From NCBI GenBank assembly GCA_011369465.1, contig DRQG01000085.1:1-52204 (forward strand): a stretch of 52,204 nt of DNA. The letters are read 5' to 3'. The notes under the pieces were generated by a model. That model was given only the letters and a program-made list of their open reading frames with translations, did no database searches and had not been told where the DNA came from. Source of the stretch: Caldithrix abyssi (GTDB taxonomy: Bacteria > Calditrichota > Calditrichia > Calditrichales > Calditrichaceae). Below are positions 2,930 to 35,187 of the stretch, piece by piece. Numbering within the stretch: the stretch's first letter is position 1; every line of letters begins with the position of its first letter. A program made the position numbers and the translations under genes.

Positions 2930-3958
2930 TTATTCCTCGATTATAGTAACGTTTAAAGCATCAAATACATTCTGGATACGATTTAAAATAGTATTACTGC
3001 TGCTGCCTGCAAACAAAAGGCCTACGATGTTTTTATCATTATCAAGTACTGCCGACCCGCTATCGCCGCCCGAACTCATATTGCCGGTCATAAGTTGATC
3101 CACAAAAGTCGCGGTTTTTCCTGTTCCATAGCTCACATCTACGGTTACATCAACCTGTTGAATGGTGCCTGTAGTATGGCCGGTGGTACGCCCGCTTTTT
3201 TGTACGCTCATACCCAACAAACCTTCGGCCACCCCATTGATTTTACCGATATTTAGAATCTCGTTCAGCACATCGGCTTCGTTTAGCGGCCGGGCCAGCG
3301 CACAATCCACTGTATTGGTGGCTGCCTGGGAAGAGGCTTTATAAACAGCCCGCAGGCGGGTTTTGCTGCCTACAGCCGCAGCAAAGGCATTGAGTACACC
3401 GGCCGCTGCATTGGCAAAAGGACAGGGACTGGAACCACCGCCGTCATCCTCTTTGAATTTAATCGGTATAAATTCGGATAAATCGGCAATATGATCCTGA
3501 GGCATTCCGCCGCCGTCGTAAGGGCCCGGCTGAAGGATAGGATCGCCGATAGAAGCATCATTACTGTTGGCTAATACGTGGTTGTTAGAGAGGATATACT
3601 TCTTACCATTCTTTTGCACCAAACAACCCAGCGTCCCTGCGGTGATGTTGATATGCCCGATACTTACCCCGCCGGGAGCCGGTCGAAAACGGTCCTTGGG
3701 GTCTTGCTGGGCGGTGAAGATACCGCTGGGATAAACATCCGTAGGAACGCCATCTATGGCAGAGGGTATGATCTCTTCGGCACTCAACGCTTTGGCCGCC
3801 ACCTTTGTGCTTACCGAAACGATTATCGCCAATTGATCGGTCAGTTTGCCGTTTGTTACCTTATAGCCGATCCCCGTCGCAACCACGTTCGGTTTATTCA
3901 TCAAATTCATCCGCACCTGATTGAGGGCGGTTCTTATACCTTCCAATTGATGAGCCAT
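2930..3958 (-). CDS. Trypsin-like serine protease, cytoplasmic type
   Basis: A 342-residue protein. The start ATG at 3958 is chosen because AGGGAGG lies just upstream; a longer open frame to 4015 lacks this. After an N-terminal domain (about 1-84) there is a chymotrypsin-fold peptidase: H127 in LSNNHVLA, D218 in NTVDCALA and S300 in GGDSGSAV form a complete catalytic triad. There is no signal peptide or membrane helix, so it is probably cytoplasmic or exported by an unusual route. A Gly/Ser-rich, Cys-containing stretch (about residues 172-182) looks like a surface loop. The following gene is a small copy of the N-terminal domain, 5 bases away, so the pair is likely an operon. It is read divergently from the pilus operon. 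The substrate is unknown. Confidence 0.85.
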   Translation of the reverse strand: MAHQLEGIRTALNQVRMNLMNKPNVVATGIGYKVTNGKLTDQLAIIVSVSTKVAAKALSAEEIIPSAIDGVPTDVYPSGIFTAQQDPKDRFRPAPGGVSIGHINITAGTLGCLVQKNGKKYILSNNHVLANSNDASIGDPILQPGPYDGGGMPQDHIADLSEFIPIKFKEDDGGGSSPCPFANAAAGVLNAFAAAVGSKTRLRAVYKASSQAATNTVDCALARPLNEADVLNEILNIGKINGVAEGLLGMSVQKSGRTTGHTTGTIQQVDVTVDVSYGTGKTATFVDQLMTGNMSSGGDSGSAVLDNDKNIVGLLFAGSSSNTILNRIQNVFDALNVTIIEE

Positions 3959-4073
3959 GTTGCCTCCCTTTGTTAAATGAAAAATAATATATATGTGCCC
4001 GCAAATCGAAAGCAATAAAATAAATTATTAATCGAATCGTCGGTCAAAGTCTTAATTTATAACTTAAGTAGTC

Positions 4074-4164: not shown

Positions 4165-6468
4165 ATGTCATCCATCTCTAAAAGCAGATACAAGGACGAC
4201 TGGCTCGTCCGGGCGTTACTTTATTATCAGATTATAGATGAAGAATTGTATGAAGAACTACAACAGCGTTTCGCCGACAGCGAGTTTTTTTACGACGTTT
4301 TGACCGGAAACGGCTATTTACAGCCGGAAGACATCGCTTTATTCGTTGAAAACGCTTTAAAGATACCCTCCATTAATCTGGATAAAGTTCGGCTTGACCC
4401 TAAAATAATAAAAATTATTCCGGAGGAGTTTTGCCGCAAGTATTGGCTTATGCCGTTTGAACTTCATGAAAAATACATCTCGGTGGCCTGCTTTAACCCA
4501 ACCAATCTTAACGTGGAATCGCAAATTGAACAGCTTACGGGAAAGTATGTAAAAACCTTTTTTGCTTCTAAAGATCAAATCATCAAAAAAATTAATGAAT
4601 ATTACAATCCGGATAAGCTTATCTGTTCACTGGTTAAAACCCAAAAGAGAGCGCCCCGCATTACAGTAGCCGGAGTTAAAGCGGATAAAGACGATACCCC
4701 CGTCGTAAAATTAGTAAATCAGATTATATTTGAGGCTATTGAAGAAGGAGCCAGCGACATACATATAGAACCCAAAGAAGAAATTGTTTCCGTACGCTAT
4801 AGGATAGACGGCATTCTGCGCAACGTTATGGACGTGCCGCGCTCGCTTCTTACCACGCTGATGAGCCGGATTAAAATCATTTCCAACCTAAATATTGCCG
4901 AAACGCGGAAGCCACAGGACGGCAAAGCCAAAATAAAAGTGGACGACGCGGATATCGATTTGCGTGTTTCCATACTGCCTACCAGTTACGGGGAAAAAGC
5001 CGTTATCCGCATTTTAGATAAACGGAAAGCGCTGGTATCCTTTGAAAAAATGGGAATCCGTGGCCATAACCGGGAATATCTGGAAAAATGCTTCGAGTTT
5101 AAGCAAGGCATGGTGTTGGTTACCGGACCCACCGGCTCCGGAAAAAGCACCACACTGTACGCTGCCATTAACAGAGTGCGCTCAACAGCAAACAATATCC
5201 TTACCATAGAAGACCCCATTGAGTACAGAATGGAGGGCATTAATCAGGTACAGGTCAACGAAAAAGCCGGCATTACTTTTTCCAGCGCGCTCCGTTCCTT
5301 TTTGCGGCAGGACCCGGACGTAATCCTCGTCGGTGAGATTCGCGATAAAGAAACCGCCGAAATCGCCATCCAGGCTGCACTTACAGGCCACCTGGTATTA
5401 AGTACTCTGCATACCAATGATACTTTTGCCACTATCACACGTCTACAGGATATGGGCATAGACAAGATTAAAATAACTGAGTCTTTGCAGGCTATAATCG
5501 CTCAAAGACTGATCCGACGCCTGTGTCCGGATTGCAAAAAGAGTATTAAGGTCAATGATGTGGATGATGATTTAGGAGCCCTCTTTGGCAAACTGGGCTA
5601 TAAACCGGATATTTTTGAAGCAAAAGGATGCCAGCGGTGCAACTTTAGCGGCTACAAAGGACGTATCGGTGTTTATGAAATTCTGCTTCTCGATTCCGAA
5701 ATTAAAGAAATGATAAATCGCAGCGTGGGTATCCGTGAAATCCGCAAGACCGCCCGCAAACAAGGTTTTCGGAATCTTTTTGAAGACGCTCTTTCGCTCG
5801 TAGCCGAAGGAATAACGGATTATAAAGAAGTGCTCCGCACCATCCATCCCGGTTCCACTTCGGATTTGGATATAGCCGGTACTTCCGATGCTTATCCTTC
5901 ACAAACAGCAGCATCCGGGCCCCTGTCTTCCCCACCGGTGGCCGAAGAGCAGCGGCGCCCTATCGAAGAGGGTGTGTTTAAAGACGATGAAAAGACACCC
6001 ACCATACTTATTGTGGAAGATTCACCCGTGGCGCGGAAAATGATCCGCAAAATCATAGAAAAATCGACCAACTATGTGACGATGGAAGCTGAAGACGGGG
6101 TGAAAGCTTTGGAAAAAATCGATGAGACAAAACCGGATTTAATTCTACTGGACATAATGATGCCCAATATGGACGGATATGAAGTTCTGCAGCATCTTCG
6201 AGCCGATGTGTCCACCAGTCATATTCCGGTGCTCATTCTCACCGGTCTAAAATCGCCCGAAAGTGAAATTAAAGGCTTTGAACTCGGCGCGGATGATTAT
6301 CTTACAAAACCCGTTCACAAAGATCGCTTATTGGCCAGAATAAACCGCTATTTGAAACGTCCTGAGCCCGCTAAAATTACAATTCCACCGGAAGAAAAAT
6401 TCAAACCTGCGCCAGCACCTCCGATAAGCGAAGAGTCCGACGAAGAACTTAACCTGAGATTGGTCTGA
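4165..6468 (+). CDS. pilB: Type IV pilus extension ATPase fused to a receiver domain
   Basis: A 767-residue PilB/GspE/MshE-type hexameric ATPase that powers pilus assembly. Residues about 1-150 are the N-terminal T2SSE_N/MshEN-like region. The ATPase core follows, with Walker A GPTGSGKST (K327), the Asp box and Walker B (DPDVILVGEIRD), a His box, and a four-Cys zinc site C454/C457/C489/C492. Unusually, after a Pro/Ser-rich linker (about 565-605) there is a complete CheY-like receiver (about 610-735) with acidic residues in IVEDS, phospho-acceptor D663 (LLDIMMP) and the Lys in LTKPV, then an acidic tail. Standard PilB proteins are about 560-580 residues and end after the ATPase, so the receiver is an addition. 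It is the first gene of the pilus operon and overlaps the peptidase gene by one base. Phosphorylation control of extension is inferred. Confidence 0.93.
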   Translation: MSSISKSRYKDDWLVRALLYYQIIDEELYEELQQRFADSEFFYDVLTGNGYLQPEDIALFVENALKIPSINLDKVRLDPKIIKIIPEEFCRKYWLMPFELHEKYISVACFNPTNLNVESQIEQLTGKYVKTFFASKDQIIKKINEYYNPDKLICSLVKTQKRAPRITVAGVKADKDDTPVVKLVNQIIFEAIEEGASDIHIEPKEEIVSVRYRIDGILRNVMDVPRSLLTTLMSRIKIISNLNIAETRKPQDGKAKIKVDDADIDLRVSILPTSYGEKAVIRILDKRKALVSFEKMGIRGHNREYLEKCFEFKQGMVLVTGPTGSGKSTTLYAAINRVRSTANNILTIEDPIEYRMEGINQVQVNEKAGITFSSALRSFLRQDPDVILVGEIRDKETAEIAIQAALTGHLVLSTLHTNDTFATITRLQDMGIDKIKITESLQAIIAQRLIRRLCPDCKKSIKVNDVDDDLGALFGKLGYKPDIFEAKGCQRCNFSGYKGRIGVYEILLLDSEIKEMINRSVGIREIRKTARKQGFRNLFEDALSLVAEGITDYKEVLRTIHPGSTSDLDIAGTSDAYPSQTAASGPLSSPPVAEEQRRPIEEGVFKDDEKTPTILIVEDSPVARKMIRKIIEKSTNYVTMEAEDGVKALEKIDETKPDLILLDIMMPNMDGYEVLQHLRADVSTSHIPVLILTGLKSPESEIKGFELGADDYLTKPVHKDRLLARINRYLKRPEPAKITIPPEEKFKPAPAPPISEESDEELNLRLV

Positions 6469-7238
6469 TGTTTGTCGAATCCCTTACGGCTTTTGCCATC
6501 GGTCTTTTGATAGGAAGTTTTCTCAATGTGTGCATCTATCGTATTCCGCTTAAGGAATCCGTTTTCTGGAGCCGCTCATATTGTCCGCACTGCCGGCATA
6601 CCATACCATTCTACCACAATATACCGTTGTTTTCTTACCTCATCTTAAGAGGTAAATGCGCCAACTGTAAAAAGAAAATTTCCCCTGTATATCCGGTTGT
6701 GGAACTTCTTTCCGCTGCGGCAACGGTGTTAATTTATAATCACTTCGGCGTGAGCGGAGCGGCTTTCTTCTATATTTTATTAATTTATTCGCTTATTGTA
6801 ATCACGTTTATTGACTTTCAAACCAAATTAATCCCCAACACAGTATTGCTATTTTTACTGGGCAGCGGCGTAATAATAAATCTGTTATTCAACGTAATTT
6901 CATGGACGGAAGCGTTATTGGGGTTTATCATATCCGGCAGTATAATGTACGCTTTAGCTGTTATGGGCAAATTGTTGTTTAAAAAGGAAAGTATGGGTAT
7001 GGGCGACGTGAAATTTAGTGCTGTTGCCGGATTTTTCCTGGGCTGGAAACTGACCATCGCAGCGCTGTATTTCGGATTCGTTTTTGCCCTGCTTTTTGCC
7101 GTCTTTGGTAAGCTTATAAGCAAATCGGCAATGGAAAGGGTTATCCCTATGGGGCCTTTTTTTTCTGTAAGTTTTTTCCTGTTCCTTCTTTGGGGAAATC
7201 ATTTTTTTGAAGTGTATGTTTCGATCATTAACGGATAA
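6468..7238 (+). CDS. pilD: Prepilin peptidase and N-methyltransferase
   Basis: A 256-residue inner-membrane aspartic peptidase that cleaves the leader of type IV prepilins after Gly and methylates the new N-terminus. It has the N-terminal cytoplasmic loop with zinc Cys pairs C39/C42 and C64/C67 (typical of the bifunctional form), then hydrophobic segments carrying both catalytic aspartates: D116 in FIDFQTKLIPN and D180 in GMGDVKF. Length is normal for the family. The ATG overlaps the stop of the ATPase gene (ATGA), so translation is coupled. Its substrates are evidently the prepilins encoded at 8484-10981 in the same operon. Confidence 0.96.
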   Translation: MFVESLTAFAIGLLIGSFLNVCIYRIPLKESVFWSRSYCPHCRHTIPFYHNIPLFSYLILRGKCANCKKKISPVYPVVELLSAAATVLIYNHFGVSGAAFFYILLIYSLIVITFIDFQTKLIPNTVLLFLLGSGVIINLLFNVISWTEALLGFIISGSIMYALAVMGKLLFKKESMGMGDVKFSAVAGFFLGWKLTIAALYFGFVFALLFAVFGKLISKSAMERVIPMGPFFSVSFFLFLLWGNHFFEVYVSIING

Positions 7239-7244
7239 GCAGCT

Positions 7245-8444
7245 ATGCCGAATTTCAAATATAAAGCCATTAGTACAGATGGAAAGCAGATTGAAAGCGT
7301 CCTTTTAGCGGCCGACAAAAATGATGTGATGCGCCAGTTAAAAGAACTGGGGATGACGGTGATTGCCGTTAATGAAATGAAGTCCGCAAAAAGCACCGAT
7401 CCGTTAAGAATAAGCGTCAAAGAAAATGTGGTTATACATTTTACCAAACAGCTCCACACCCTTCTGAAAGCCGGGCTTCCGATTATTACCAGTTTGCGGG
7501 CTATCCGTCAGCAAGCAACCGACGAGGGTTTCAAAGACGTAATCGAATCCGTTACCAGAGACATTGAACAAGGCAGCAAACTATCCGATGCTTTAGGCAG
7601 GTATCCCAAAATATTCCCTCAAATCTTCATCAGTTCTATTAAAATAGGAGAAGTGAGCGGCACTCTGGAAGAAACACTGCTCTATTTGTATCGGTTTTTG
7701 GAGCGGGATTCCCGTATCCGGAGAGATGTAAAAAAAGCGTTCCGTTATCCCATTTTTGTGTTCACGGGCTTGTTAGGCGCTTTTGTCGTTTTTACTACCA
7801 TGGTCATACCGAATTTTATCCCTATGTTTGAGGCCCGCGGCGTCGAGCTTCCTTTGCCCACTAAAATATTGATGGGGATGTATTATCTCATAACCGATTA
7901 CGGGATTTTATTACTGCTGTTTATCGTCGCTTTGGGAGCAGGCATCTACTTTTACGCCAGAACACCCGCAGGGCGTTATAAAATAGATTCTCTTCTTTTG
8001 CAAATACCGATTATGGGCATGTTCATCCGAAAAGTAAACCTTGCCCGTTTTTCTCAGCTCTTTTACACCATGAACCGTACCGGTATAGCCATAACACAGA
8101 CTTTCGAGATTATGCAAAGAACCATGGAAAATGAAGTGTACAATAAAGAATTGGGAATAATCGCCGACAAAATTACTAAAGGCGAAGAAATTGCCAAATC
8201 ATTGCAACAAAGTCCTGTTTTTACACCTCTTATGGTGGAGATGGTTTCCATCGGAGAAAAATCCGGCTCGCTGGACGAAATGTTGGCCAACGTAGCCGAA
8301 TATTACAATCAGGAAGTTTCGGACACGGTGGCTAATTTGACATCGTTAATAGAACCGATCATTACGGTAGGACTGGGGGGAATGATTTTATTACTGGCTT
8401 TGGCATTATTCTTACCCATGTGGGATATGATGAATATAATGTAA
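7245..8444 (+). CDS. pilC: Pilus inner-membrane platform protein
   Basis: A 399-residue PilC/GspF-family polytopic protein. It carries the usual N-terminal cytoplasmic segment starting NFKYKAI, followed by two T2SF repeats (about residues 70-195 and 270-395) with membrane helices near 168-190, 218-240 and 370-395. Conserved motifs include ELHTLL-like FTKQLHTLLKAGLP, and the family-typical GEKSG in the second repeat. It couples the ATPase to pilin insertion in the inner membrane. The start is 6 bases after the peptidase stop; length and order are canonical. Nothing unusual is seen. Confidence 0.96.
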   Translation: MPNFKYKAISTDGKQIESVLLAADKNDVMRQLKELGMTVIAVNEMKSAKSTDPLRISVKENVVIHFTKQLHTLLKAGLPIITSLRAIRQQATDEGFKDVIESVTRDIEQGSKLSDALGRYPKIFPQIFISSIKIGEVSGTLEETLLYLYRFLERDSRIRRDVKKAFRYPIFVFTGLLGAFVVFTTMVIPNFIPMFEARGVELPLPTKILMGMYYLITDYGILLLLFIVALGAGIYFYARTPAGRYKIDSLLLQIPIMGMFIRKVNLARFSQLFYTMNRTGIAITQTFEIMQRTMENEVYNKELGIIADKITKGEEIAKSLQQSPVFTPLMVEMVSIGEKSGSLDEMLANVAEYYNQEVSDTVANLTSLIEPIITVGLGGMILLLALALFLPMWDMMNIM

Positions 8445-8483
8445 CGGTAAAGTTGTCAAATCAAACAAGGAGGAGTTGTACTC

Positions 8484-8837
8484 ATGAAGTTAACCACAAA
8501 CCAAAAAGGTTTCACCTTGATGGAACTGATCGTCGTCATCATCATTATTGGTATTTTAGCGGCAATTGCAGTTCCCCGCTATCTGGACATGACCGATACG
8601 GCCGAAAAAGCCACCTGTTTGGCAAACCAAAGAGCTATTGAAGCGGCTATTCAAATGCACTATGCCAATGCGCTGGCTAATGATCCCAGCGCCAGCTTAT
8701 CAAGTTCCATTACAGCCGCCACTTCCACCGGCAGCTTATACTCGGACGGCGAAGTTCCGACTTGCCCAACAACCGGAACGCTCTCGGCGGACGCTAACGG
8801 AAACGTAACATGCAGCGTTTCTGATCATAACCTGTAA
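8484..8837 (+). CDS. pilA: Major type IV pilin (prepilin)
   Basis: A 117-residue class III prepilin. A short basic leader (MKLTTNQKG) is followed by the cleavage site G-FTLMEL with the invariant Glu at +5, then a hydrophobic helix (VVIIIIGILAAIAVPRYL). The small C-terminal globular part has three cysteines (one in the helical region, two near the end), and the last two could form the terminal disulfide loop. It has the strongest ribosome binding site of the operon, AAGGAGGAG at 8467-8475, and is followed by a 282-base gap, both consistent with high, separately tuned expression and so with the major subunit. Mature length is about 108 residues, short for a pilin but close to GspG-like or geobacterial PilA forms. 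A pseudopilin role cannot be excluded. Confidence 0.9.
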   Translation: MKLTTNQKGFTLMELIVVIIIIGILAAIAVPRYLDMTDTAEKATCLANQRAIEAAIQMHYANALANDPSASLSSSITAATSTGSLYSDGEVPTCPTTGTLSADANGNVTCSVSDHNL

Positions 8838-9119
8838 TTTGTTTTACAGCAAACGCCCGCACAAGCTGTGTTTCGTTCGTTTGCATGTACAATGAGAAAT
8901 GGGGCGATAGATTGTATCGAGTCTATAAATTCATCCAAAGGATAATATGTTAAACAATATGATTCCACTGAAGTTTCGAAAAACACAAGGTATTTTGTCC
9001 GTCTTCCATCGAAGCGGGACACCATGTTCTATGGAATAATTGCTTAAAGAATATCCCAAACATAATGATCTGATTACCCTATCATCGCCCCTTTCTTTAT
9101 TATACGCAAATAACAAGTA
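8838..9119 (+). other. Non-coding gap inside the pilus operon; possible structured RNA
   Basis: 282 bases between the major and minor pilin genes, the only large gap in the operon. A six-base stem (CTGTAA at 8832-8837 with TTACAG at 8844-8849) lies over the pilin stop codon. Further on, GAAATGGGGCGAT (8896-8908) is complementary to ATCGCCCCTTTC (9084-9095), giving 12 base pairs with one bulge around about 175 bases; shorter inner pairings such as ATTCCA with TGGAAT also exist. No credible reading frame is seen on either strand. It could be an mRNA-processing or stabilising element, a regulatory RNA, or a decayed insertion. No family is recognised. Confidence 0.4.
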
Positions 9120-9548
9120 ATGAAAAAAAACATAAAAATATTTGAATTTCCCGGAAATACCGGGGGCTTCACATTGATGGAGCTTATCGTCGTTATTGTC
9201 ATTATCGGCGTTGCTTTGCCTGCGATTATCCGGCTATACAGTCAGATGAATATTGAATCGGTTAAAAGCGGGGTGTTAGATCAAATGATCATATACGCCG
9301 AGAACAAAATGGAAGAAATCACAGGCCTTAAAGAGAAAACCTGGAACTGGTACACAAATCCTAATCAGTTTGAGGTGGATGAAGATTTGGGGGATGGATT
9401 CCAGCGTACCGTTACGGTAAGCACTGTATCCGGTTGGGGCTCAGCGAACCTTGACGCCTGGGAAATTACAGTACAGATAACGCATCCATTGTATCCTGAC
9501 GGTTATGTATTAACCACACGATTTACCAAATATTATGAAGAACGTTGA
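9120..9548 (+). CDS. Minor prepilin, PilV/GspI-like
   Basis: A 142-residue protein with a 16-residue leader ending in GG, then the prepilin site G-FTLMELIVVIVIIG with Glu at +5 and a hydrophobic helix. The globular part is small, with Trp-rich segments (TWNWY, WGSANLDAWEI), and recalls GspI/PilV/MshD subunits, which help prime pilus assembly at the tip. It ends inside the next gene (14-base overlap), so the three minor pilins are translationally coupled. Assignment to the prepilin class is firm; the exact subfamily is inferred from size and gene order. Confidence 0.85.
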   Translation: MKKNIKIFEFPGNTGGFTLMELIVVIVIIGVALPAIIRLYSQMNIESVKSGVLDQMIIYAENKMEEITGLKEKTWNWYTNPNQFEVDEDLGDGFQRTVTVSTVSGWGSANLDAWEITVQITHPLYPDGYVLTTRFTKYYEER

Positions 9549-10047
9549 TTTAACAAGACAAAAAGGATTCACAATTCTGGAATTGGTAGTTGTTATCGCC
9601 ATTTTAGGTATTTTTGCCTTAATCTCGCTTTCTATGGTTCAGATGACTTCCACAACATTCCAACAAGTGCAGGCCAATACGATTGCTTCCTGGGATGTTC
9701 GTACCGCTTTGCGGCTTTTACGCGAGGATGTAAAACAGATAAAGCCGTCATACATCGATGCCTCGGCCACTTTCGGCGCTTCCGGCAATAAACTGGTCTT
9801 CACAACCGTAAACGCACAGCAAATATCCTGGCGTAAAACAACGGGGGGACAATTGCAAAGACGCGTAAACAGCGGCAACTGGTTACCCGTTTTAACCAAT
9901 CTGCAAAGCAGTCCGTTTATCTTCCTGGATAAGAATCTGAATGTAACCGCTCAGACTAACAATCTGGTATATATCGATGTTTTACTGAATGTAACTCAGA
10001 ACGGTCAACAAATAACCGTACAGGATCGGTTCTATGTACGCAATTGA
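9535..10047 (+). CDS. Minor prepilin, PilW/GspJ-like
   Basis: A 170-residue protein with leader MKNVDLTRQKG, site G-FTILELVVVIAILG (Glu +5) and a long N-terminal helix. It then has the pattern seen in GspJ/PilW/MshO: TALRLLREDVKQI after the helix, and a beta-rich domain with TGGQLQRRVNSG. It is probably a tip subunit of the pilus. It overlaps both neighbours by 14 bases. The subfamily call rests on the R-LR-D signature and on gene order. Confidence 0.85.
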   Translation: MKNVDLTRQKGFTILELVVVIAILGIFALISLSMVQMTSTTFQQVQANTIASWDVRTALRLLREDVKQIKPSYIDASATFGASGNKLVFTTVNAQQISWRKTTGGQLQRRVNSGNWLPVLTNLQSSPFIFLDKNLNVTAQTNNLVYIDVLLNVTQNGQQITVQDRFYVRN

Positions 10048-10981
10048 TCTGATACATAATCAAAAAGGCGCCGCAATGCTGGCCACGCTTATGTTTATCA
10101 TCTTTTTCGGGCTGATAGGCATAACCATGGTCACCATGTTTGTATCGCACAGAAAGATGCAATCGCTGGATATCCATCAACAGCGCGCTTTCTACGCCGC
10201 TCAGTCCGGTATTGAGTACGGTCTTGCCTATCTACTGGACTATTGTGGAGGGACAACGAACAGTAATGTAGTCGATTTGGACAACATTACGGAAACAGGC
10301 ATCGATGCCGGAGGCAATACCACATTCGATCTTCGTATAAACACCATTGGTAATGACAGCCTCGAGATCATCGCTACCGGCCACAGCGGAAATGTAGTAA
10401 AACGGGTGCGCAAAGCGTTAAACTATATAGACGTATCCCTTTATGCCATTTATACTACCGGTACAATCAGCAAAGTCACCGTAAACGGTCCGGTTAAGCA
10501 AAACGCTGCGTATATGCCAAAATTCAATCTGGATTTAATGCGACAAACAGCAATTGCCAGCAGTCGTTATTACCCCGGCGATTTGAATATTAGCAGTGTT
10601 TGGGCGTTTGGAGGTGAAATTACATTTGCAGAGCAGAATATTAACATCGGCGCCTGGAATTTTATCAATTACGGAAATTTTGTGGCCGGTAATAATATTA
10701 CGATTACCTCCTCCGCGTTTCCTTTGGGAGCCCATTTAGGTACCATGGTTCAACCCGTATCGGGTACCCAGTTTAAATGCTTATCAGGCGGTGTTCACTG
10801 GATTTACGGGGGAATGATAATAAACGGCAACGTAACCGGAAAACAATTCGGATTTTTATGGTGGACCTATAAAAACCTTGTTGTATCCCGCCGAAGGGCA
10901 TACATGAAAAACTTGTTGAAATATACTGTTAATCAAAGTCCAATTATTCTTTACGGAAACACATGGACAATCGATAACTAA
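10034..10981 (+). CDS. Minor pilin, PilX/GspK/MshP-like
   Basis: A 315-residue protein. The N-terminus (KGAAMLATLMFIIFFGLIG) is the PilX type, lacking the canonical Glu +5, as is usual for this class. It is followed by the conserved AFYAAQSGIEYGLAYLLD helix segment. The C-terminal two thirds are beta-rich with Gly/Asn-rich turns and no recognised domain. It may cap the minor-pilin complex. The short leader (MYAIDLIHNQKG) is compatible with PilD cleavage. It overlaps the previous gene by 14 bases and is followed by a 30-base gap. Confidence 0.82.
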   Translation: MYAIDLIHNQKGAAMLATLMFIIFFGLIGITMVTMFVSHRKMQSLDIHQQRAFYAAQSGIEYGLAYLLDYCGGTTNSNVVDLDNITETGIDAGGNTTFDLRINTIGNDSLEIIATGHSGNVVKRVRKALNYIDVSLYAIYTTGTISKVTVNGPVKQNAAYMPKFNLDLMRQTAIASSRYYPGDLNISSVWAFGGEITFAEQNINIGAWNFINYGNFVAGNNITITSSAFPLGAHLGTMVQPVSGTQFKCLSGGVHWIYGGMIINGNVTGKQFGFLWWTYKNLVVSRRRAYMKNLLKYTVNQSPIILYGNTWTIDN

Positions 10982-11011: not shown

Positions 11012-13255
11012 TTGGTTTCCAAAAACAATCCCAATAATTCGAACGATGAGCTTCAGAAGTTTGAAGACTTTCTGGCCAATACATTGGACGACATTGCAGA
11101 CAAATACTCCGGTAAGAGTGTATCGCCCGATGATCAAACCCGGGAAATTTCGAAAAAGCCGGATTCAAATGCGCAAACAGAGAATCTTTCGAAGCTTAAA
11201 AAAACGTACCATCCTGAGGTTCAGAGTAAAGAGAAAAAACCCGTAAATCCGCAAAAACGTGCACAACGGAATGCCTCGCCAAACAATATATCCGTAAAGC
11301 AAAAGGAAAAGACTTTAAATCAGCATGGGCCGCATAAAACTTCAAAACCGCAACAAACCTCTGTGCACGCAAAGGATAAGGGTCATTCCCACGGTTTATC
11401 GGCGAAAACAGACCCGGCATTAAAAACGAAAACCCGTCAGACAAAAGCAATCCCCAAAAAGGAAGCAGGGAAGGTTGTTGGCAAAACCAACCCGTCCAGG
11501 CCGCGCCCGGATGCCAGTGCACCTAAAAAGCAACCCAAAGCAAAAGCTGCAGCAAACGCGCCCGCACGCACCTATATTTTTGATCGGTTTTACAAAAAAC
11601 TATCTTTCTCTCGTCAACTGCAAGCCCGTTACAACCTCGCTTTTGATATAGATGCCGATAAAATCCGCTATGTTGTAAGCAAGGTGAGCAAAGATGATAT
11701 CCAGGTTTTGAAATGGGGGATACAACGGTTTCCAAGTGAAGAAATCAACCGGTTTAAAGCCCTGCAAATTGCCATGGAAACCATTCTTACAAAAGAATAC
11801 AAACGCGGCATGAGCATCCATGTGAGTATATTCAGTCCCGATATCTCTATCCGGCAGGTAATTCTACCTAAAATAGAGAAGGAAGCGGAGTTGCGAAGCG
11901 CTTTGACTATCAAAAACCAAAACGAGCTACCCAATTTTACGGATAAAACCGTCTGGACATACGAGATAGTGGAAGAGTTTGAAGACGACGGTATTTCGAA
12001 GCTGCGTGTTTTGGTAACCGTGGTTCCCGAGGATTTAATAGCCAATTATGTACATGTTTTCAAGGAACTTAAAATTCGGGTTAATAAACTCATATCCCGT
12101 CCTGCCGCTCTGCAATCTGCTTACAAAAAAATGGTCTTTCGGCCGGATAAAGACTTGTTGATCGATATTTCGTACGATTTTACACAAATCTGCCTGATGC
12201 GCAACGGTTTTTTGGAATACATCCGCAATGTTGGTATCGGAGCACGCAATTTGGAGACAACTATTCATGAAAAAAATAAAGACGGGAATGAAACCGATCA
12301 GGATTTAACCATACCGGCCCTGGGCGCAGACAAAAGTCAAAAAGTAAGCTCAAATCTTTTGCGCGACCGCCTGATGAAAAAAATAAAGGATCTGAAAAAG
12401 AAACAAAATCCTGTTTTGCATACCTTTTTTTCCGAGATACTGCGTTCGATGTCATTTATTCAGGGCAGAAGCACAAATTATCTTGTAGAACGCATTATGA
12501 TTACCGGGTACGGTGTTCGCAAAGAAAGTCTTATTCCCTATTTACGCAGCCGGCTGCATTTACCCATGTTTATCCTTGCCCCGCAATTTGAAAATCTGGA
12601 CAAAAAAACTCTTGACTATACGGAATATTTTTCCACCATTGGTACGGCCCTGCATCAGGAAGAATCCTGCAACATATTGCCAAAGTCATACATGACCAAC
12701 ATTCTTTTTGCCAAGCTAAACTGGATTCTGACATTGATAATGATCACTCTTATTTGCGGTTTTGCCTATTTCTCTCTTCTGCAATACCGTGAGACGGAAA
12801 GCAAGAAAAAATTAATTGCCCAATATGAAGACAACTATGAGCGGTTAAATCCGATCGAAGGGATTTACAATAAATACAAACAGGAAATTGAGCAGCTCAA
12901 TAACGAAAACCGCGAATTGCGCAGCTATATTAAAGCCGGGCCTCCCATTATTGAGGTGTTACGCTTCTTTAGCAACGAAACTCCGGATAACATTCGGCTG
13001 GAATCCATCCAGTTTGTAGATATAGCATCCGATGTAAAAAAATACAGTAAAGAAGAAAAAGTTGATAAAGATTACAAATATCGTATCGAACTCAATGCCG
13101 TTTTAATGGGCGATGCCTTAATGGGAGACGCCTTTTTAATCAACTATATTAACAAATTAAAAAGTCTGAACTATTTTAAACATATTCTGCTCTTGAATAA
13201 GAATAAAATCCCCGAAAACGACGAAGTTTTGTTTACGCTGGATTTATATTTATAA
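11012..13255 (+). CDS. PilM-PilN fusion protein of the pilus alignment complex
   Basis: A 747-residue protein starting with TTG at 11012, supported by GGAAAGAGG just upstream. Residues 1-185 are a hydrophilic, Lys/Pro/Gln-rich and probably disordered region. About 205-450 is a PilM-like actin-fold ATPase domain (YNLAFDIDADKI at the start; DLLIDISYDFT as the phosphate-2-like motif), interrupted by a charged insertion (about 425-465). One membrane helix (about 570-592, ILTLIMITLICGFAYFSLL) is followed by a PilN-like periplasmic part with a coiled coil (about 595-640). PilM and PilN are usually separate proteins that bind each other through the PilN N-terminus; here they are one chain, recalling MshI but with an added N-terminal tail. 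A 15-base microduplication encodes the repeated LMGDA near residue 697. Confidence 0.82.
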   Translation: MVSKNNPNNSNDELQKFEDFLANTLDDIADKYSGKSVSPDDQTREISKKPDSNAQTENLSKLKKTYHPEVQSKEKKPVNPQKRAQRNASPNNISVKQKEKTLNQHGPHKTSKPQQTSVHAKDKGHSHGLSAKTDPALKTKTRQTKAIPKKEAGKVVGKTNPSRPRPDASAPKKQPKAKAAANAPARTYIFDRFYKKLSFSRQLQARYNLAFDIDADKIRYVVSKVSKDDIQVLKWGIQRFPSEEINRFKALQIAMETILTKEYKRGMSIHVSIFSPDISIRQVILPKIEKEAELRSALTIKNQNELPNFTDKTVWTYEIVEEFEDDGISKLRVLVTVVPEDLIANYVHVFKELKIRVNKLISRPAALQSAYKKMVFRPDKDLLIDISYDFTQICLMRNGFLEYIRNVGIGARNLETTIHEKNKDGNETDQDLTIPALGADKSQKVSSNLLRDRLMKKIKDLKKKQNPVLHTFFSEILRSMSFIQGRSTNYLVERIMITGYGVRKESLIPYLRSRLHLPMFILAPQFENLDKKTLDYTEYFSTIGTALHQEESCNILPKSYMTNILFAKLNWILTLIMITLICGFAYFSLLQYRETESKKKLIAQYEDNYERLNPIEGIYNKYKQEIEQLNNENRELRSYIKAGPPIIEVLRFFSNETPDNIRLESIQFVDIASDVKKYSKEEKVDKDYKYRIELNAVLMGDALMGDAFLINYINKLKSLNYFKHILLLNKNKIPENDEVLFTLDLYL

Positions 13256-13266
13256 CGGACAACGCT

Positions 13267-13809
13267 ATGGAAAAGAAAATATTTACGATACTTTTAGCGG
13301 TACTGCTCATTATATCTCTTTCGTGGTATCTTTTTATTTACAGCAGACAAAAAGCGACTTTGGAAGACATCGAATCAAATTTGAGAGTAGTAGCCCATAA
13401 GCTGAAAAACGCGCAACAGGCACAGCAGAATATGAAGCTTATCGAAGAGAATCTTAAAAAGAAACAGGAAAATTTAACCAACGAACGAAACCGTTTTATC
13501 AGCGAATCGGATCTTCCGGAAGTGACTGAAAAGTTAAAATCCTTCGCGCGCGAATATAATCTGGAATTAACAGATTTTTCATCGTCATTCGAGAGTTTAT
13601 TGGAGAGTGAGAAGAAGACGAAAATTGCCCCTCTGGCGTTAAGTCTTACGGTTAAGGGGAAGTACCTGGATATCGGCCGCTTTCTGGAACACTGGCCCAC
13701 CCTGCCCTTTTACCTGATACCGGAACGTTTTAACATCAAAAGAGCAGGTGAAGATACAAACATATTGGACGCAACTATTTCGGCAACGTTATACATCTGG
13801 AATAATTAA
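13267..13809 (+). CDS. PilO-like pilus alignment protein
   Basis: A 180-residue bitopic inner-membrane protein with a short cytoplasmic N-terminus, one membrane helix (about 5-24), a coiled coil (about 28-80) rich in Lys/Glu/Gln, and a small ferredoxin-like periplasmic domain (about 85-178). The segment KGKYLDIGRFLEHW is typical of PilO/GspM proteins. It should pair with the PilN part of the preceding fusion and with the following PilP-like protein to link the inner-membrane platform to the secretin. The start is 11 bases after the previous stop. Confidence 0.82.
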   Translation: MEKKIFTILLAVLLIISLSWYLFIYSRQKATLEDIESNLRVVAHKLKNAQQAQQNMKLIEENLKKKQENLTNERNRFISESDLPEVTEKLKSFAREYNLELTDFSSSFESLLESEKKTKIAPLALSLTVKGKYLDIGRFLEHWPTLPFYLIPERFNIKRAGEDTNILDATISATLYIWNN

Positions 13810-13824
13810 TCATCGGAGCAAAGC

Positions 13825-14280
13825 GTGGCAATAAATAAAAGTCAAAAAAGACTGCTTATTCTATTGGGTGTTGTGTTGGCCTTTGCCATATTCGATTTTA
13901 TCAATAACACAGATACCTATACCAGTTTTTATTCTTCTTCGCAAAAGAAAAAGAAACAAGCCGCGGCTACGGAAAATGTGCAAAAGTCCTTTTCCAAGCC
14001 GCTTACACGGAAGTCGTATGTTAGCGAATGGGGACGCGATCCTTTCTTTAAAAAAGTAACCACGCAGGTAAAAAAGAAAAGAAAAAAAAGCCGAACTGCC
14101 GAGCAGGTACTCTTTTTACAAGCCATCAGTTACGATGGGCTCAATTCTGTAGCATTAATTAATAACAACGTTTGTAAAACGGGAGATATTATTGCAGGCT
14201 ACCGTATTGTGCATATTTCACAACAAAGCGTTACGGTATCCGACGGAAAAAAACAAACCACACTAAAGCTTGCAAGATAG
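13825..14280 (+). CDS. PilP/GspC-like pilus protein
   Basis: A 151-residue protein starting with GTG. One N-terminal membrane helix (about 11-27) is followed by a very basic linker (KKKK, KKKRKK) and a small beta domain (about 90-150). The linker ends in WGRDPFF, the motif found in PilP and GspC proteins just before their homology region. PilP contacts the secretin N-domains and completes the alignment complex. Here it is anchored by a helix rather than by a lipid, which resembles GspC/MshK more than classical lipoprotein PilP. It is followed at once by the secretin gene, as expected. Confidence 0.75.
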   Translation: MAINKSQKRLLILLGVVLAFAIFDFINNTDTYTSFYSSSQKKKKQAAATENVQKSFSKPLTRKSYVSEWGRDPFFKKVTTQVKKKRKKSRTAEQVLFLQAISYDGLNSVALINNNVCKTGDIIAGYRIVHISQQSVTVSDGKKQTTLKLAR

Positions 14281-14293
14281 CAAGGAGTTGGCC

Positions 14294-15580
14294 ATGTCGC
14301 TAAAAAGACAATGCATCATTTTTATTTTATTGTTTTATTTTCTTACTCCTCTTTGGGCTGCGGATATCCATGAACTGCTGCAAACAAAAATCAATACAAA
14401 TTTTGCAGGCACCTCGTTGGATAATGTTTTACGTATGTTGTCCAAACAATACAATGTAAACATTGTGGTTGGCGGTGAGGCCAAAGGCCCGGTAACCGCG
14501 CGGCTGTACGATGTGAGCCTGGCAGAAGCTTTGAGCACTATCCTGAAAACACACGGATATCATTACGTGGTGGGCGACAATGTTATAATGATTAAACCGC
14601 TGGCTCTGGAATCCAACCGAGATTTGCAGACCGAAGTATTCGATTTAAAATATGTGGATGCCTACCGCCTTAAAGCCACTTTGGAAACGCTGCTTTCCGA
14701 GCGGGGCAAAATGGAACCGCTGCTTTCCGAAATGGGCAAGGAAAAGAAAGATTACCGGGCTCACCTGCTATTGGTATCGGATTTGCGCGAAAACCTGGAA
14801 GCAATCAGACAATCCATCCTCTTTATGGATAAACCGGAAAAGCAGATCCAAATTGAAGTGCGTTTAGTGGAAAGAACCCTTGGTGACGAACAAAATGTAG
14901 GCTTGAACCTGCCCAAAAGTTTTACCGTTAAAACCACCGGTGCAGAAATTTCAGCGCCTATCACACAAACCGGAACAGGGCAGTCCGGCCAGCCTACGCT
15001 GCTTTCCGCCTGGTATCAACTGCCCAATGCAGCCAAAGATCTTACGTTGGGTGTACTCACATTTGATGAACTAAAAGCCGCACTTGATTTACTGGCAAAG
15101 GACCAGAGCGCCAAACTGATTTCCAACCCGAAAGTAACTACACTAAACAATAAAAAAGCCAGTGTGCGCATCGGGAGAACTGTTCCCATACCGCAAATAT
15201 CCCGCAGCGTTGCCGGCGATCTTTTTTCATATCAGGATAAAAGAGTGAATATACAGCTGGACGTTTTACCTCAGATCGGCAATGACAGCATGATTACGCT
15301 CGATGTGCATCCTTTACTGGAAGAGATTGTCGGCTATACCGGCCCGGCTGATGCACCATATCCTATTACCGCCGTACGTGAGGTGAATTCCACCGTACGT
15401 ATTAAAGACGGCGAGACGCTGGTCATCGGAGGTCTGGTAAAAGAAACTGAGACCGAACGCGAGGAGAAAGTGTGGCTGTTAGGGGATATTCCCATTTTGG
15501 GATATTTGTTTACCCATGTATCCAAAAATAAACAAAAAACGGATTTGCTGATTTTTATCACCACTAAAATTATGGAATAG
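14294..15580 (+). CDS. pilQ: Short secretin, outer-membrane pilus channel
   Basis: A 428-residue protein. The ATG at 14294 is preferred over an upstream in-frame TTG because AAGGAG lies 6 bases before it and it begins a clear signal peptide (residues 1-23, ending LWA). An STN/N0-like domain (about 25-105) is followed by one N1-like domain (about 115-195) and the C-terminal secretin barrel (about 200-428) with the signature VRIKDGETLVIGGLVKE. Classical PilQ is over 600 residues with AMIN domains, so this is a minimal secretin, closer in size to MshL/GspD-like short forms. A 30-base direct duplication at 14688-14747 produces the repeated LLSE-x-GK. It forms the gated channel through which the pilus leaves the cell. 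Confidence 0.9.
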   Translation: MSLKRQCIIFILLFYFLTPLWAADIHELLQTKINTNFAGTSLDNVLRMLSKQYNVNIVVGGEAKGPVTARLYDVSLAEALSTILKTHGYHYVVGDNVIMIKPLALESNRDLQTEVFDLKYVDAYRLKATLETLLSERGKMEPLLSEMGKEKKDYRAHLLLVSDLRENLEAIRQSILFMDKPEKQIQIEVRLVERTLGDEQNVGLNLPKSFTVKTTGAEISAPITQTGTGQSGQPTLLSAWYQLPNAAKDLTLGVLTFDELKAALDLLAKDQSAKLISNPKVTTLNNKKASVRIGRTVPIPQISRSVAGDLFSYQDKRVNIQLDVLPQIGNDSMITLDVHPLLEEIVGYTGPADAPYPITAVREVNSTVRIKDGETLVIGGLVKETETEREEKVWLLGDIPILGYLFTHVSKNKQKTDLLIFITTKIME

Positions 15581-15601
15581 ATTTTTTCAGAAAGGTTGTT
15601 T

Positions 15602-16630
15602 GTGGGATCGCTTCTCTTAAATACATTAAAATTTGCCGTTCAAAATAACGCCTCGGATGTGCATTTTTCCAGCGGCAATCCACCGGTTTTACGTATTTTG
15701 GGTGAATTAAAACGAGTGGATGTACGCAGCATCACCACGGAAGAATTGACCGATTTTGCAACCTCTTTTTTAAACAACGAACAAAAACAACTGCTCAAGC
15801 AGAAAACGGAAATCGATCTGAGCATCGACTTCCCCGAAACTGCCCGTTTCCGCGTGAACATTTACAAACATTTAAACGGGCTTAGTATGGCTTTTCGCAC
15901 AATTCCGCATAAAATTCTTTCTTTGGAAGAATTGCGCATGCCGGAAATTTTAAGCAAACTAACCAGGCGTAAAAAAGGGCTTATTTTGCTTACCGGACCT
16001 ACGGGCAGCGGTAAATCTACCACGCTGGCTGCCATGGTAAACGAAATCAATCAAACCAGGCGGGAGCATATCATCACCATAGAAGACCCGATTGAATACA
16101 TTCACCCGCAAAAGGAAAGCCTGATCCATCAAAGAGAAGTAAACCAGCATACCAAGGACTTTGCCTCGGCGCTGCGCAGCGCTCTGCGGGAAGACCCGGA
16201 TGTTATTCTTGTGGGTGAAATGCGGGATTTGGAAACCATTACCTACGCTCTGCACGCCGCCGAGACAGGACATTTGGTTTTTTCGACCATGCATACCAAC
16301 TCGGCAGCAGAAACCGTTGACCGTATTATAAATGTATTTCCCTCGGAACAGCAGCAACAAATCCGCACTATTCTGGCAGCTTCGCTTTTGGCGGTGATTG
16401 CGCAACGTTTAATACGCCAGGCTATGAAAGCCGATCGGATTGCACTGATGGAAATATTGGTCAACACCCCGGCCATCCAAAATCTGATCCGTGAAGGAAA
16501 AACACATCAAATTGATTCTTCTCTGCAAACGGGATCGGAGTACGGTATGCAAACCTTTGAACGCAGCCTAAAACAACTTAAGCAATACAATCTTGTTCCA
16601 CCGGAAATAGAACTTGAAGATATCTTTTAA
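15602..16630 (+). CDS. pilT: PilT-type retraction ATPase
   Basis: A 342-residue hexameric ATPase that drives pilus depolymerisation. The GTG start at 15602 is preferred over TTG at 15596 because AAAGG lies at proper distance from GTG. The N-terminal PAS-like domain has the typical NASDVHFSSGNPPVLRI. The core has Walker A GPTGSGKST (K138), Asp box, Walker B (DPDVILVGEMRD), and the His box (HLVFSTMHTNSA). The usual PilT end motif AIRNLIRE is present as AIQNLIREGK. There is no zinc site, which separates it from PilB. Placement inside the same operon implies a retractile pilus, possibly twitching motility or DNA uptake. It overlaps no gene; the next start is 16 bases downstream. Confidence 0.94.
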   Translation: MGSLLLNTLKFAVQNNASDVHFSSGNPPVLRILGELKRVDVRSITTEELTDFATSFLNNEQKQLLKQKTEIDLSIDFPETARFRVNIYKHLNGLSMAFRTIPHKILSLEELRMPEILSKLTRRKKGLILLTGPTGSGKSTTLAAMVNEINQTRREHIITIEDPIEYIHPQKESLIHQREVNQHTKDFASALRSALREDPDVILVGEMRDLETITYALHAAETGHLVFSTMHTNSAAETVDRIINVFPSEQQQQIRTILAASLLAVIAQRLIRQAMKADRIALMEILVNTPAIQNLIREGKTHQIDSSLQTGSEYGMQTFERSLKQLKQYNLVPPEIELEDIF

Positions 16631-31414: not shown

Positions 31415-34400
31415 TTATTTCAACAAAATAATTTTCCGCGCTTTGCTGTACCCATTTTCTGAGATAAAACGTACGATATACAAACCGCTGGGATAACCTG
31501 CGGCATCCCACACCGCTTTATAACTGCCGGGTTTGCTCTTACCGGCAAACAAGGTAGCTACTTTTTGCCCTAAAACATCGTAAACGCTTAGTTCTACCCG
31601 CACAGACGATTTTTGAATTGATCCGACGCTATAACGGATTGTAGTTTTGGGATTAAACGGATTGGGATAATTGGGCAATAATTCAAACACCACTGGCAGG
31701 TCATTCAGCTCAGTTTCTATGCTTAACGGCGCTTCAACGATAACCAGCAGGGAATCCGAGGCCGTGGCCATACTGTCGTCCTGCACGCCTATGTACAGCC
31801 AGCTCTGCCCGCGGAAATTCTCGTCCGCAGAGAGTATGATAGCGTATGTTGAATCTTTTAAAGTTATTAAAATGGAATCGTTGGATACGCCGTACATGTA
31901 AAACAGCTCTTTGGGCGGGGTTTCAACATCGGTTACGTAGCGCCAGGTTTCCAGCGTAATGCTGCTATCGGCCCGGAAACGCAGGGTATCGGGCAGGGTA
32001 TCCAAAATTTCCGGCGCGTCATTAACCGACCTGATGGTCACCACAAATGTATCGGCGGCGCTCAGCCCGTACGGGTCCGTGGCCGTGAGAATATATTCCG
32101 CCTGTCCGAAAAAATTGTCCTCTGCTCGTACAAACAGTGAATCACCGCTGCGACGAATTGAAATTTGCGGGTTGTTCCCCTGGTATGTATAGATCAGCGT
32201 ATCGGCGCTGTCGGGATCGGTAAACACCTCCGCGAAATACAGCAAGAAATGTTCGCCGCTGTCCTCGGCAAAAGAGGTATCGGGCAGCGGATGTATGACC
32301 CGTGGCGCGTTTTCCACCAAAATATAATCTTCACGTATTTTCTCGCTGCTGCCCAGCGGACCAAAAATGGTAAGCTGCACTGTAAATTGGCCGTCTTCAC
32401 TATAAACGTGTTCCGGATTTTGCGCGATGCTGGAATCGCCGTCGCCAAAATACCAGATGAGACTATCCACCTCGCCCACCGATTCGTTGGTAAAGCGCAC
32501 GGCAAGGGGTTTTTCTCCGATGGTTACATCGGCCGTAAAATCGGCGATCAGCTCGCTGAATTCGTAAGCGCCCATATCAACCACCGAGTTACCATCATTG
32601 TTACCGTCATACACGCGGGGTTTTCCGGCCAGGTCGGTTTGCGGCAGGGTAACCAGAGCGTTGTCCATCGTGCCGGAGTCTATGGCGGGTGAAGCGCTTT
32701 TTAAAGCATAAGGATGCTCGCCATCGCCTGCAAAGGCAGGGTTCTGCCCCAACCGGTTTCCGCCGCCGTTTACAACCTTGGGATTTAAAAAGGACTTACT
32801 GAACAGAGAATAAATCACATTTGGCGCGCTGGCGTCGCCGGATTCAAAATCAAAATCGTTGGCATTGCCGCTGAAGATACAATTGGTTACATACGGACTG
32901 GCTTCGTTGCAATAGATGCCGTCTGCGCTGTTGTTCACAATGGTATTGTTCATAATTTGCGGACTAAGATGGTCCAGCAGGACGCCCTGTTCATTATCCG
33001 CAATTAAGTTATTGGTAATTTCGATTAAACCCGTGCAATAAATGCCCACGGTATTCCTGCTGATGCGGTTATTCACAACCTGGGTCTGAGCGTAGCCGCT
33101 GGAATTGAAAATACCGTAACGGGTATTATTCTCGATAAGATTGCGTTCAATCTGACAATAGGTGATCGTTTCTACGGCAATACCGTCCCGGCCGTTTTGA
33201 TGGATATGGTTGTTTTTCACTACAGGTTGATTCTTCCCATCGGCGTTTGTGAAGAGCAAGCCATTGTTTCCATTACCGGAGATGTTGTTGGATTGTATGC
33301 GCGGCGCCGACCGGCCATCTATATGAATCCCGCTACCACCGTTTTGATTCAGGCGGGAATGTTCCAAAAGCAAACCGGCGCCTGTGACCGACACCGCTCC
33401 CTCAAAACCGAGCGAATCGAGCAGCGAATCACAATACGAAGCGTATTCAATCGCTGTATATCTTAAAATGCTGCTGTCTGTAAGGCCGCCGTTTAAGAAC
33501 AAGATTCCCCAATGGCCGCTCTCGCCGTCGCGGGTAAAATGAATGCTGTCGCTTTCCGTTCCTTCTGCCAGCAGCCGCCCGTCCACACGCAACATACCCA
33601 GATCGAAATCCGGCGATGTATAAACATGGTTGCCGCCTGTGGCAAAGCGCACCTCCACACCGGGCTCAATAACCAGTAGAGAATCCGCGGGCACCAGGGC
33701 TTCTCCGCGCACTACAAAAGGACTGTACTCTTTTGTCCATGTGCCAAAAACCCGTTTTCCGTCCGGTATGATGGTTTTATCGCTGATGATAAAAGTGGTA
33801 TCGCTTTGATCCGCTAAAGACGGATCGGCGGCATTGCTGACCCGGACGAGACACTGCTCGGACAGTTCATTAGGAATCAACCAATCATATCCGCCGCTGC
33901 CCGGCTGCCCGCCGGCAAGAGCCAGCCAGTTTTGGCCGTTGTCCACGCTGTATTCCAGATCGACCGAAGCGACATTGCTTTGCCAGCGGATCGTCTGCGT
34001 GGTACCTATTTTCCAGGATTCCCAGCCGTTGGGTACGGTAAGCCGCAAATAGCTGCCGGCAAATTCATAGGCGCCCATATCGATGCGATCGTAAAGGATT
34101 CTTTCCGTCCCCGCCGCGTCCACTGCGGGCAGCCCCAGTCCGCTGGTATCCGCCGTACCGGCATTGATGGCAAACGAATTGGAGCGCAAGCTGTAGTCAT
34201 CGGAGGCCGTATCGGCGAAGAAAGGATCAATAGCCGTTATATTCCCCCCTTCGTTGGCAACGCCTTCCGCAGGCAATGCTTCTTCAGCCAACAGGCTGAA
34301 AGATAGGGACACCGTAGAGGTCAGATTGCTTTCCAGAGAGGTTTGGTTGCCCCAAAAAACGGAATTGATGACATGAGAAACCGCGTTGTACCCGGCGTTG

Positions 34401-35044: not shown

Positions 35045-35187
35045 ATTATGTTCCATTTGTTTGTTTTATCAGAAAAAAAGGAAAGTGCTTAAATAATACG
35101 AAATATAAAAATACTATACTTTGATCTATTTGGCAACGGCAGGAATAAATATGACTATTTTTATCCAAAATAAATACGACATCCGAA

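Follow-up and report, generated by a model that had tools for sequence, protein, structure and literature searches.

Sensory control of the PilB motor is unsettled in model bacteria, where PilG, FimX, PilZ and second messengers stand between kinase and motor. The 52,204-nucleotide stretch of Caldithrix abyssi DNA analysed here (the window) encodes a type IV pilus extension ATPase whose chain runs on into a response-regulator receiver, and it raises the question of whether phosphorylation could control the motor itself.

Architecture of the fused motor and its operon

The gene, referred to here as pilB-REC, is a single ATG-initiated frame of 767 codons with no internal stop, and all three Pfam domains of its product (MshEN, T2SSE and receiver) score above cut-off. 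Its parts are as follows:

4165–6468, + strand: pilB-REC, extension ATPase with C-terminal receiver, 767 aa
4360–4614, + strand: MshEN domain, residues 66–150, degenerate (Pfam E 2.1e-15)
4687–5838, + strand: T2SSE/PilB ATPase, residues 175–558 (Pfam E 9e-140)
5854–5985, + strand: linker, residues 564–607, predicted to be disordered (AlphaFold2 pLDDT <50)
6004–6345, + strand: receiver (Response_reg), residues 614–727 (Pfam E 1.6e-32)
6151–6153, + strand: codon of D663, the predicted phospho-acceptor aspartate, invariant in 55/55 distinct receivers
6376–6465, + strand: C-terminal tail, residues 738–767, ending in EELNLRLV, with a like ending in part of the phylum

The ATPase carries an Asp box (residue 197), Walker A (321), Walker B (383–394) and a His box (407), together with zinc cysteines arranged as CxxC pairs (454/457/489/492). 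With the acidic pair E618/D619, D663, T693 and K715 all intact, the claim of the initial annotation that a complete CheY-like receiver follows the normal PilB end is borne out, and this set of residues would class the protein as a response regulator. In an AlphaFold2 model built from 38 sequences (pLDDT 84), the receiver lies above 90 almost throughout, and values below 50 are confined to residues 1–6, the linker and residues 738–757 of the tail. The modelled ATPase superposes on the structures of Thermus PilF (5oiu) and Geobacter PilB (5tsg), with Z 46.4 and 45.9 respectively, and the modelled receiver on RR468 (3gl9, Z 24.1, rmsd 0.7 over 121 residues). The closest NCBIfam model is the PilB equivalog TIGR02538, whose cut-off the protein does not reach (573 versus 675.65 bits); the label “PilB-type” is therefore used on the basis of genomic context and fold, and not of membership in that equivalog. 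Both the ATPase motifs and the pilus assembly gene neighbourhood that mark a PilB are present.

A short motif occurs at the extreme C-terminus of Calditrichota fusions, for example as EELNLRLV, EIELQLM or DFKLI. A stricter version of the pattern matches 12 of the 25 Calditrichota sequences listed and none in families f3, f4 and f5; the relatives that have the motif are L002, L003, L005–L010, L017, L020 and L024. It is possibly a docking peptide.

pilB-REC is the first gene of a pil cluster:

6468–7238, + strand: pilD, prepilin peptidase (Pfam A24_N_bact, Peptidase_A24)
7245–8444, + strand: pilC, platform protein (Pfam T2SSF)
8484–8837, + strand: pilin (Pfam N_methyl)
9120–10047, + strand: two minor-pilin-like genes, 9120–9548 and 9535–10047 (N_methyl)
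11012–13255, + strand: long pilM-like gene (PilM_2 E 8e-6 and TIGR01175, both below cut-off)
13267–13809, + strand: pilO (PF04350)
13825–14280, + strand: small gene in the pilP position, placed by position, with no Pfam match
14270–15580, + strand: pilQ-type secretin (Pfam Secretin; best NCBIfam model IV_pilus_PilQ, below cut-off)
15596–16630, + strand: pilT, retraction ATPase (TIGR01420, 463 bits against a cut-off of 319)

The pilM-like gene is suggestive of PilM–PilN, its PilN part being placed on position only. A genome search detected two T2SSE proteins in this organism (G000), pilB-REC and PilT, and since the second is the retraction ATPase, pilB-REC is the sole detected extension ATPase of the genome. 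The arrangement recurs in 20 regions from relatives: pilD adjoins pilB in 19 of them, the remaining region ending at a contig end, and the order from pilB to pilT is the same in 13. Six stop before pilT because the contig or the region ends there; in one (L153, genome G004) pilD is followed by a pilQ-like gene. Elsewhere in the window, two large proteins (31415–35056 and 43110–47459, both on the − strand) have a Por_Secre_tail sorting domain at their end, a hint of type IX secretion.

Distribution, origin and c-di-GMP input of the fusion

The initial annotation proposed looking for the same architecture in related genomes, and such a search finds PilB-REC in 25 of the 40 Calditrichota genomes covered. 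By family, the fusion is present in 12/15 genomes of f1, to which the window belongs, 6/6 of f2, 3/4 of f3, 2/3 of f4, 1/7 of f5 and 1/5 of f6; the remaining 15 genomes have T2SSE proteins of other kinds or none at all.

The architecture extends to other phyla. Among Zetaproteobacteria, a T2SSE-receiver fusion was found in at least 51 of 78 genomes, counting matches that reach the receiver. At one such locus (L032, 5317–12180) the fusion gene is followed by CheW, then by a 484-aa protein that matches no Pfam family, and then by a kinase of CheA type (domains Hpt, HATPase, CheW and REC); a cluster that holds both CheW and CheA therefore names a candidate kinase. Across the 20 Zetaproteobacterial loci retrieved (L190–L209), CheW lies downstream in 18 and CheA in 17; in L192, L193 and L194 the contig ends too early for CheA to appear, and in L192 and L193 CheW was not detected despite some room for it. 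The cluster has the appearance of a set of chemosensory genes with an assembly ATPase as apparent output. The fusion-bearing genomes hold further T2SSE ATPases, and the pilus role of the fused one is a candidate role.

In Omnitrophota the fusion occurs in at least 9 of 285 genomes, a lower bound because three candidates per genome were scored; some ORFs of 703–708 aa were matched only to about position 574, and one of these is a fusion. Here the fused genes have lone receivers and kinases as neighbours: Cache/PAS HisKA kinases verified by Pfam lie nearby in five of the nine loci, blastp gives kinase-like matches in three further loci, and L230 has none. Locus L227 has two T2SSE-receiver genes in near-tandem (5520–7688 and 8416–10524), with lone receivers between and before them. 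Two of 148 Nitrospirota genomes carry the fusion, and at both loci a GAF-HisKA kinase stands next door or one gene off. The Nitrospirota fusion locus L234 (2061–4549) also contains a gene resembling pilT and another MshEN-T2SSE gene whose T2SSE score is weak (27 bits), perhaps a degenerate ATPase. A third Nitrospirota genome (G542, L236, 5626–7884) has a T2SSE gene with a separate receiver gene 171 bp further on, an unfused counterpart of the ATPase-receiver architecture. For Krumholzibacteriota, the phylum of L074, a search of 78 genomes with the strict E-value of 1e-192 gave none, a result that shows little at such a threshold.

In a tree of 83 ATPase domains, Calditrichota fusions form one clade (100/100), to which the Omnitrophota fusions are sister (99/98). 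Zetaproteobacterial fusions form another clade, set apart at a weakly supported fork, and a single clade uniting the fusions of all three groups is not rejected (p-AU 0.286). After even thinning the sample held 14 of the 24 Calditrichota sequences, 7 of the 21 from Zetaproteobacteria and 45 of the 81 other REC-less ones, and it contained no Nitrospirota sequences. The ATPase motifs are kept in all 24 Calditrichota sequences. A regular-expression count had indicated loss of Walker A in nine of ten Omnitrophota sequences; the alignment shows the P-loop lysine in all of them, with GKTS replacing GKTT in eight and GPTSSGKTS in the ninth.

The N-terminal MshEN domain raises the possibility of a second kind of input. 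According to the accessible text of the study that described it, binding of c-di-GMP by MshEN involves a tandem 24-residue RLGxx...Q motif, perfect conservation of which may not be required (PMC5013675). The N-terminal part was scanned for copies with at least three of the four key residues. None of the 24 distinct Calditrichota fusions has the motif, the window protein included, and it appears in one of the ten Omnitrophota fusions and in one of the 21 from Zetaproteobacteria, the latter match looking like chance; among 81 REC-less ATPases of the named-genome loci, 66 have it and 15 do not. The fused motors have thus probably lost c-di-GMP input, a loss that is not unique to fusions. Replacement of c-di-GMP by the receiver is not established by these counts, since all five REC-less Calditrichota T2SSE proteins are also without the motif; because of these relatives the exchange is a lead, and it may reflect a single event.

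Role of the receiver and candidate kinases

The explanation that we consider likely is that pilB-REC is both a type IV pilus assembly ATPase and a response regulator, with phosphorylation of D663 by a kinase acting in trans as the switch of the motor; we infer both the phosphorylation and its consequences for the motor from the protein and its relatives. The ATPase hexamer would drive pilus polymerisation, with a receiver flexibly tethered to each motor subunit. D663 would be phosphorylated by a histidine kinase whose gene lies elsewhere, and the phosphorylated receivers would alter either the working of the motor or the place at which it engages at the pilus base. Receivers arrayed around the ATPase ring might bind one another, the pilus base or a landmark, extension being permitted or barred as a result, and the signal would reach the motor with no separate PilG/PilH-type protein. 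Direct phosphorylation of the motor is made more likely by the occurrence of the same architecture beside CheW/CheA and HisKA kinases elsewhere, and the Zetaproteobacterial context is the best support for such a receiver serving as the output of a signalling pathway. As to a broader proposal, that T2SSE/PilB proteins with a C-terminal receiver make up a so far undescribed class of response regulators spanning several phyla, with a sensor kinase or a chemosensory CheA acting directly on a secretion or pilus motor, and that members of this class came to serve as the main extension motor in Calditrichota, where phosphorylation supplanted c-di-GMP binding as the input, we regard the chances as evenly balanced.

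Tentatively, the receiver could be mainly a localisation or recruitment module, phosphorylation sending the motor to the pole or to certain pilus bases and leaving ATP hydrolysis unchanged. This would be a sub-case of the response-regulator motor, comparable to the effect of PilG phosphorylation on PilB localisation in Pseudomonas. The linker, which is the variable part of the protein, bears on it in two ways. Its length ranges over 28–148 residues in 24 Calditrichota sequences and 17–48 in Omnitrophota, and so variable a tether speaks for recruitment, avidity or contact between receivers around the ring as opposed to rigid docking; disorder over the Calditrichota range would likewise suit a tethered binder. 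The near-constant length of 38–40 residues in 21 Zetaproteobacterial sequences, however, would fit a more defined arrangement there, and no polar landmark gene was identified at these loci.

Unphosphorylated receivers often lose active-site residues. Here positions 618 (E/D), 619, 663, 693 (T/S) and 715 are intact in every one of the 55 distinct receivers (24 from Calditrichota, 10 from Omnitrophota and 21 from Zetaproteobacteria), that is, across three phyla; within Calditrichota, D619, D663 and K715 are invariant, and the commonest residue per column has a mean fraction of 0.60. Such conservation makes it unlikely that the receiver is a protein-interaction module that stays unphosphorylated in the cell. 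The precedent for that reading is FimX (REC-PAS-GGDEF-EAL), a PilB partner that resembles pilB-REC as a REC-containing protein tied to PilB but is a separate protein, and whose REC, in the accessible text of a review, lacks the phospho-acceptor aspartate yet matters for localisation (PMC11656802).

If phosphorylation by a kinase in trans is accepted as the likelier course, the kinase has to be sought. The initial annotation pointed to a kinase gene 2.5 kb upstream of pilB-REC, in the following setting:

55–1635, + strand: HisKA histidine kinase (Pfam), frame open to the contig edge
1638–2597, + strand: REC-HD-GYP response regulator (Pfam), 2 bp after the kinase gene
2930–4015, − strand: trypsin-like peptidase (NAL1_N, Trypsin_2), separating the kinase pair from the pil operon

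The N-terminus of the kinase may be missing, as the window starts at a contig edge where the frame is open. Proximity and a shared strand would favour a kinase that phosphorylates both the HD-GYP regulator and PilB-REC, but it has a regulator of its own immediately adjacent, which is likely its partner, and the opposite-strand gene intervenes. Furthermore, orthologues of the kinase and HD-GYP pair are absent upstream of pilB in all 20 relatives' regions, and the single full-length orthologue of the kinase among 39 other genomes (G006, 51% identity) and the pilB of that genome are on separate contigs. At the four RR468 positions given in the title of 4ja2, PilB-REC has V, A, M and I and the HD-GYP regulator S, I, L and F, a by-eye comparison that weighs weakly in the same direction. 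The suggested partnership consequently lacks support, and a kinase shared between the two receivers is improbable.

A kinase or regulator conserved just upstream of pilB was not found in Calditrichota either: none of the 20 regions from relatives has a kinase adjoining pilB, and the upstream neighbours are mutL–miaA in f2 (by Pfam in L145, by blast cluster in the others), aminotransferase/PEPCK in part of f1 and an rluD-like gene in f3. Two of the 20 regions (L144 and L155) have a histidine kinase 1.5–2.8 kb upstream, 24–25% similar and not orthologous to the kinase of the window, and in f2 a hybrid HK-REC gene (Pfam-verified in L145, with blast-cluster homologues in L146–L148) lies about 5 kb upstream of pilB with several genes between. 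A Chp-type CheA as the common Calditrichota kinase is not supported, as no CheA above 50 bits was found in G000, G001 and G031, all of them at least 95% complete and with PilB-REC present; the search of G000 gave one weak match of 29 bits in an 895-aa ORF, the family cut-off being 23 bits. No common kinase for Calditrichota PilB-REC was found among these candidates, and because the upstream pair is unlinked in relatives and no CheA exceeds 50 bits in these three genomes, the kinase is taken to be encoded at a distance from pilB-REC.

An artefact, whether frameshift, misassembly or chance fusion with no function, might be suspected of a draft-genome contig and can be set aside with near certainty, as ATPase, linker and receiver share one open frame in 25/25 Calditrichota genomes carrying the gene and a sister clade exists in another phylum. 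The same common frame rules out a frameshift or assembly join at the linker. As to homologues split into two separate genes, ordinary PilBs are simply without a receiver: 81 of 83 T2SSE ORFs from 80 named-genome loci stop 2–27 residues past the ATPase, and the only receiver-bearing ones are those of L031 (Calditrichota) and L032 (a Zetaproteobacterium). The pilB-REC gene of G006 (L144, 6159–8408, reversed orientation) contains one in-frame TAA at about codon 172, in the N-terminal part and not at the linker, which marks either a pseudogene or a sequencing error.

Relation to known control of pilus motors

pilB-REC resembles structurally characterised PilB proteins (Geobacter 5tsg/5tsh/5zfr, Thermus PilF 5oiu) in its T2SSE core, Walker A/B, Asp/His boxes and zinc cysteines, and type IVa PilB in its position within a pilB-pilD-pilC-...-pilT cluster, but it differs from the latter in about 200 extra C-terminal residues that include the receiver and in having no recognisable MshEN c-di-GMP motif. 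In the Pil-Chp system of Pseudomonas (PilG/PilH-PilB), a CheY-like receiver influences the extension motor, as is proposed here, whereas in pilB-REC motor and receiver form a single polypeptide and CheA above 50 bits is absent from the same three genomes. MshE-type ATPases, which respond to c-di-GMP via MshEN, likewise combine an assembly ATPase and an input domain on one chain; in pilB-REC the input would be the receiver, and the 24-residue motif is absent. Response regulators with enzymatic output, such as PleD, REC-HD-GYP proteins and CheB, also unite receiver and enzyme on the same chain. In contrast to these, the output of pilB-REC would be a secretion/pilus ATPase, hexameric in its solved relatives, and the receiver is C-terminal.

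Both component families are known. For the fusion of the two, its spread and its role as the only extension motor of a genome, we found no description in the open-access literature. A search of open-access titles and abstracts, with subscription journals mostly outside its reach and supplementary tables not covered, returned no description of a PilB/T2SSE-receiver fusion. In the accessible part of a 2024 review on how PilB is controlled, REC comes up for FimX only (PMC11656802); that of a 2025 review describes PilG/PilH as separate proteins that act on PilB (PMC12632253). A type IV pilus cluster is reported in the Caldithrix abyssi genome paper, whose passage on it makes no mention of the fusion (PMC5317091). 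Wang 2016, as far as its available text goes, refers to a supplementary figure for the occurrence of MshEN alongside REC among other domains (PMC5013675), and may represent an earlier sighting of the architecture.

A motor that bears its own receiver would shorten the chain from kinase to motor to one step, and a single purified protein suffices for tests of it. The maintenance of the fusion across most of Calditrichota, together with its occurrence beside sensor kinases in other phyla, suggests that the pilus motor itself may be a direct target of signals.
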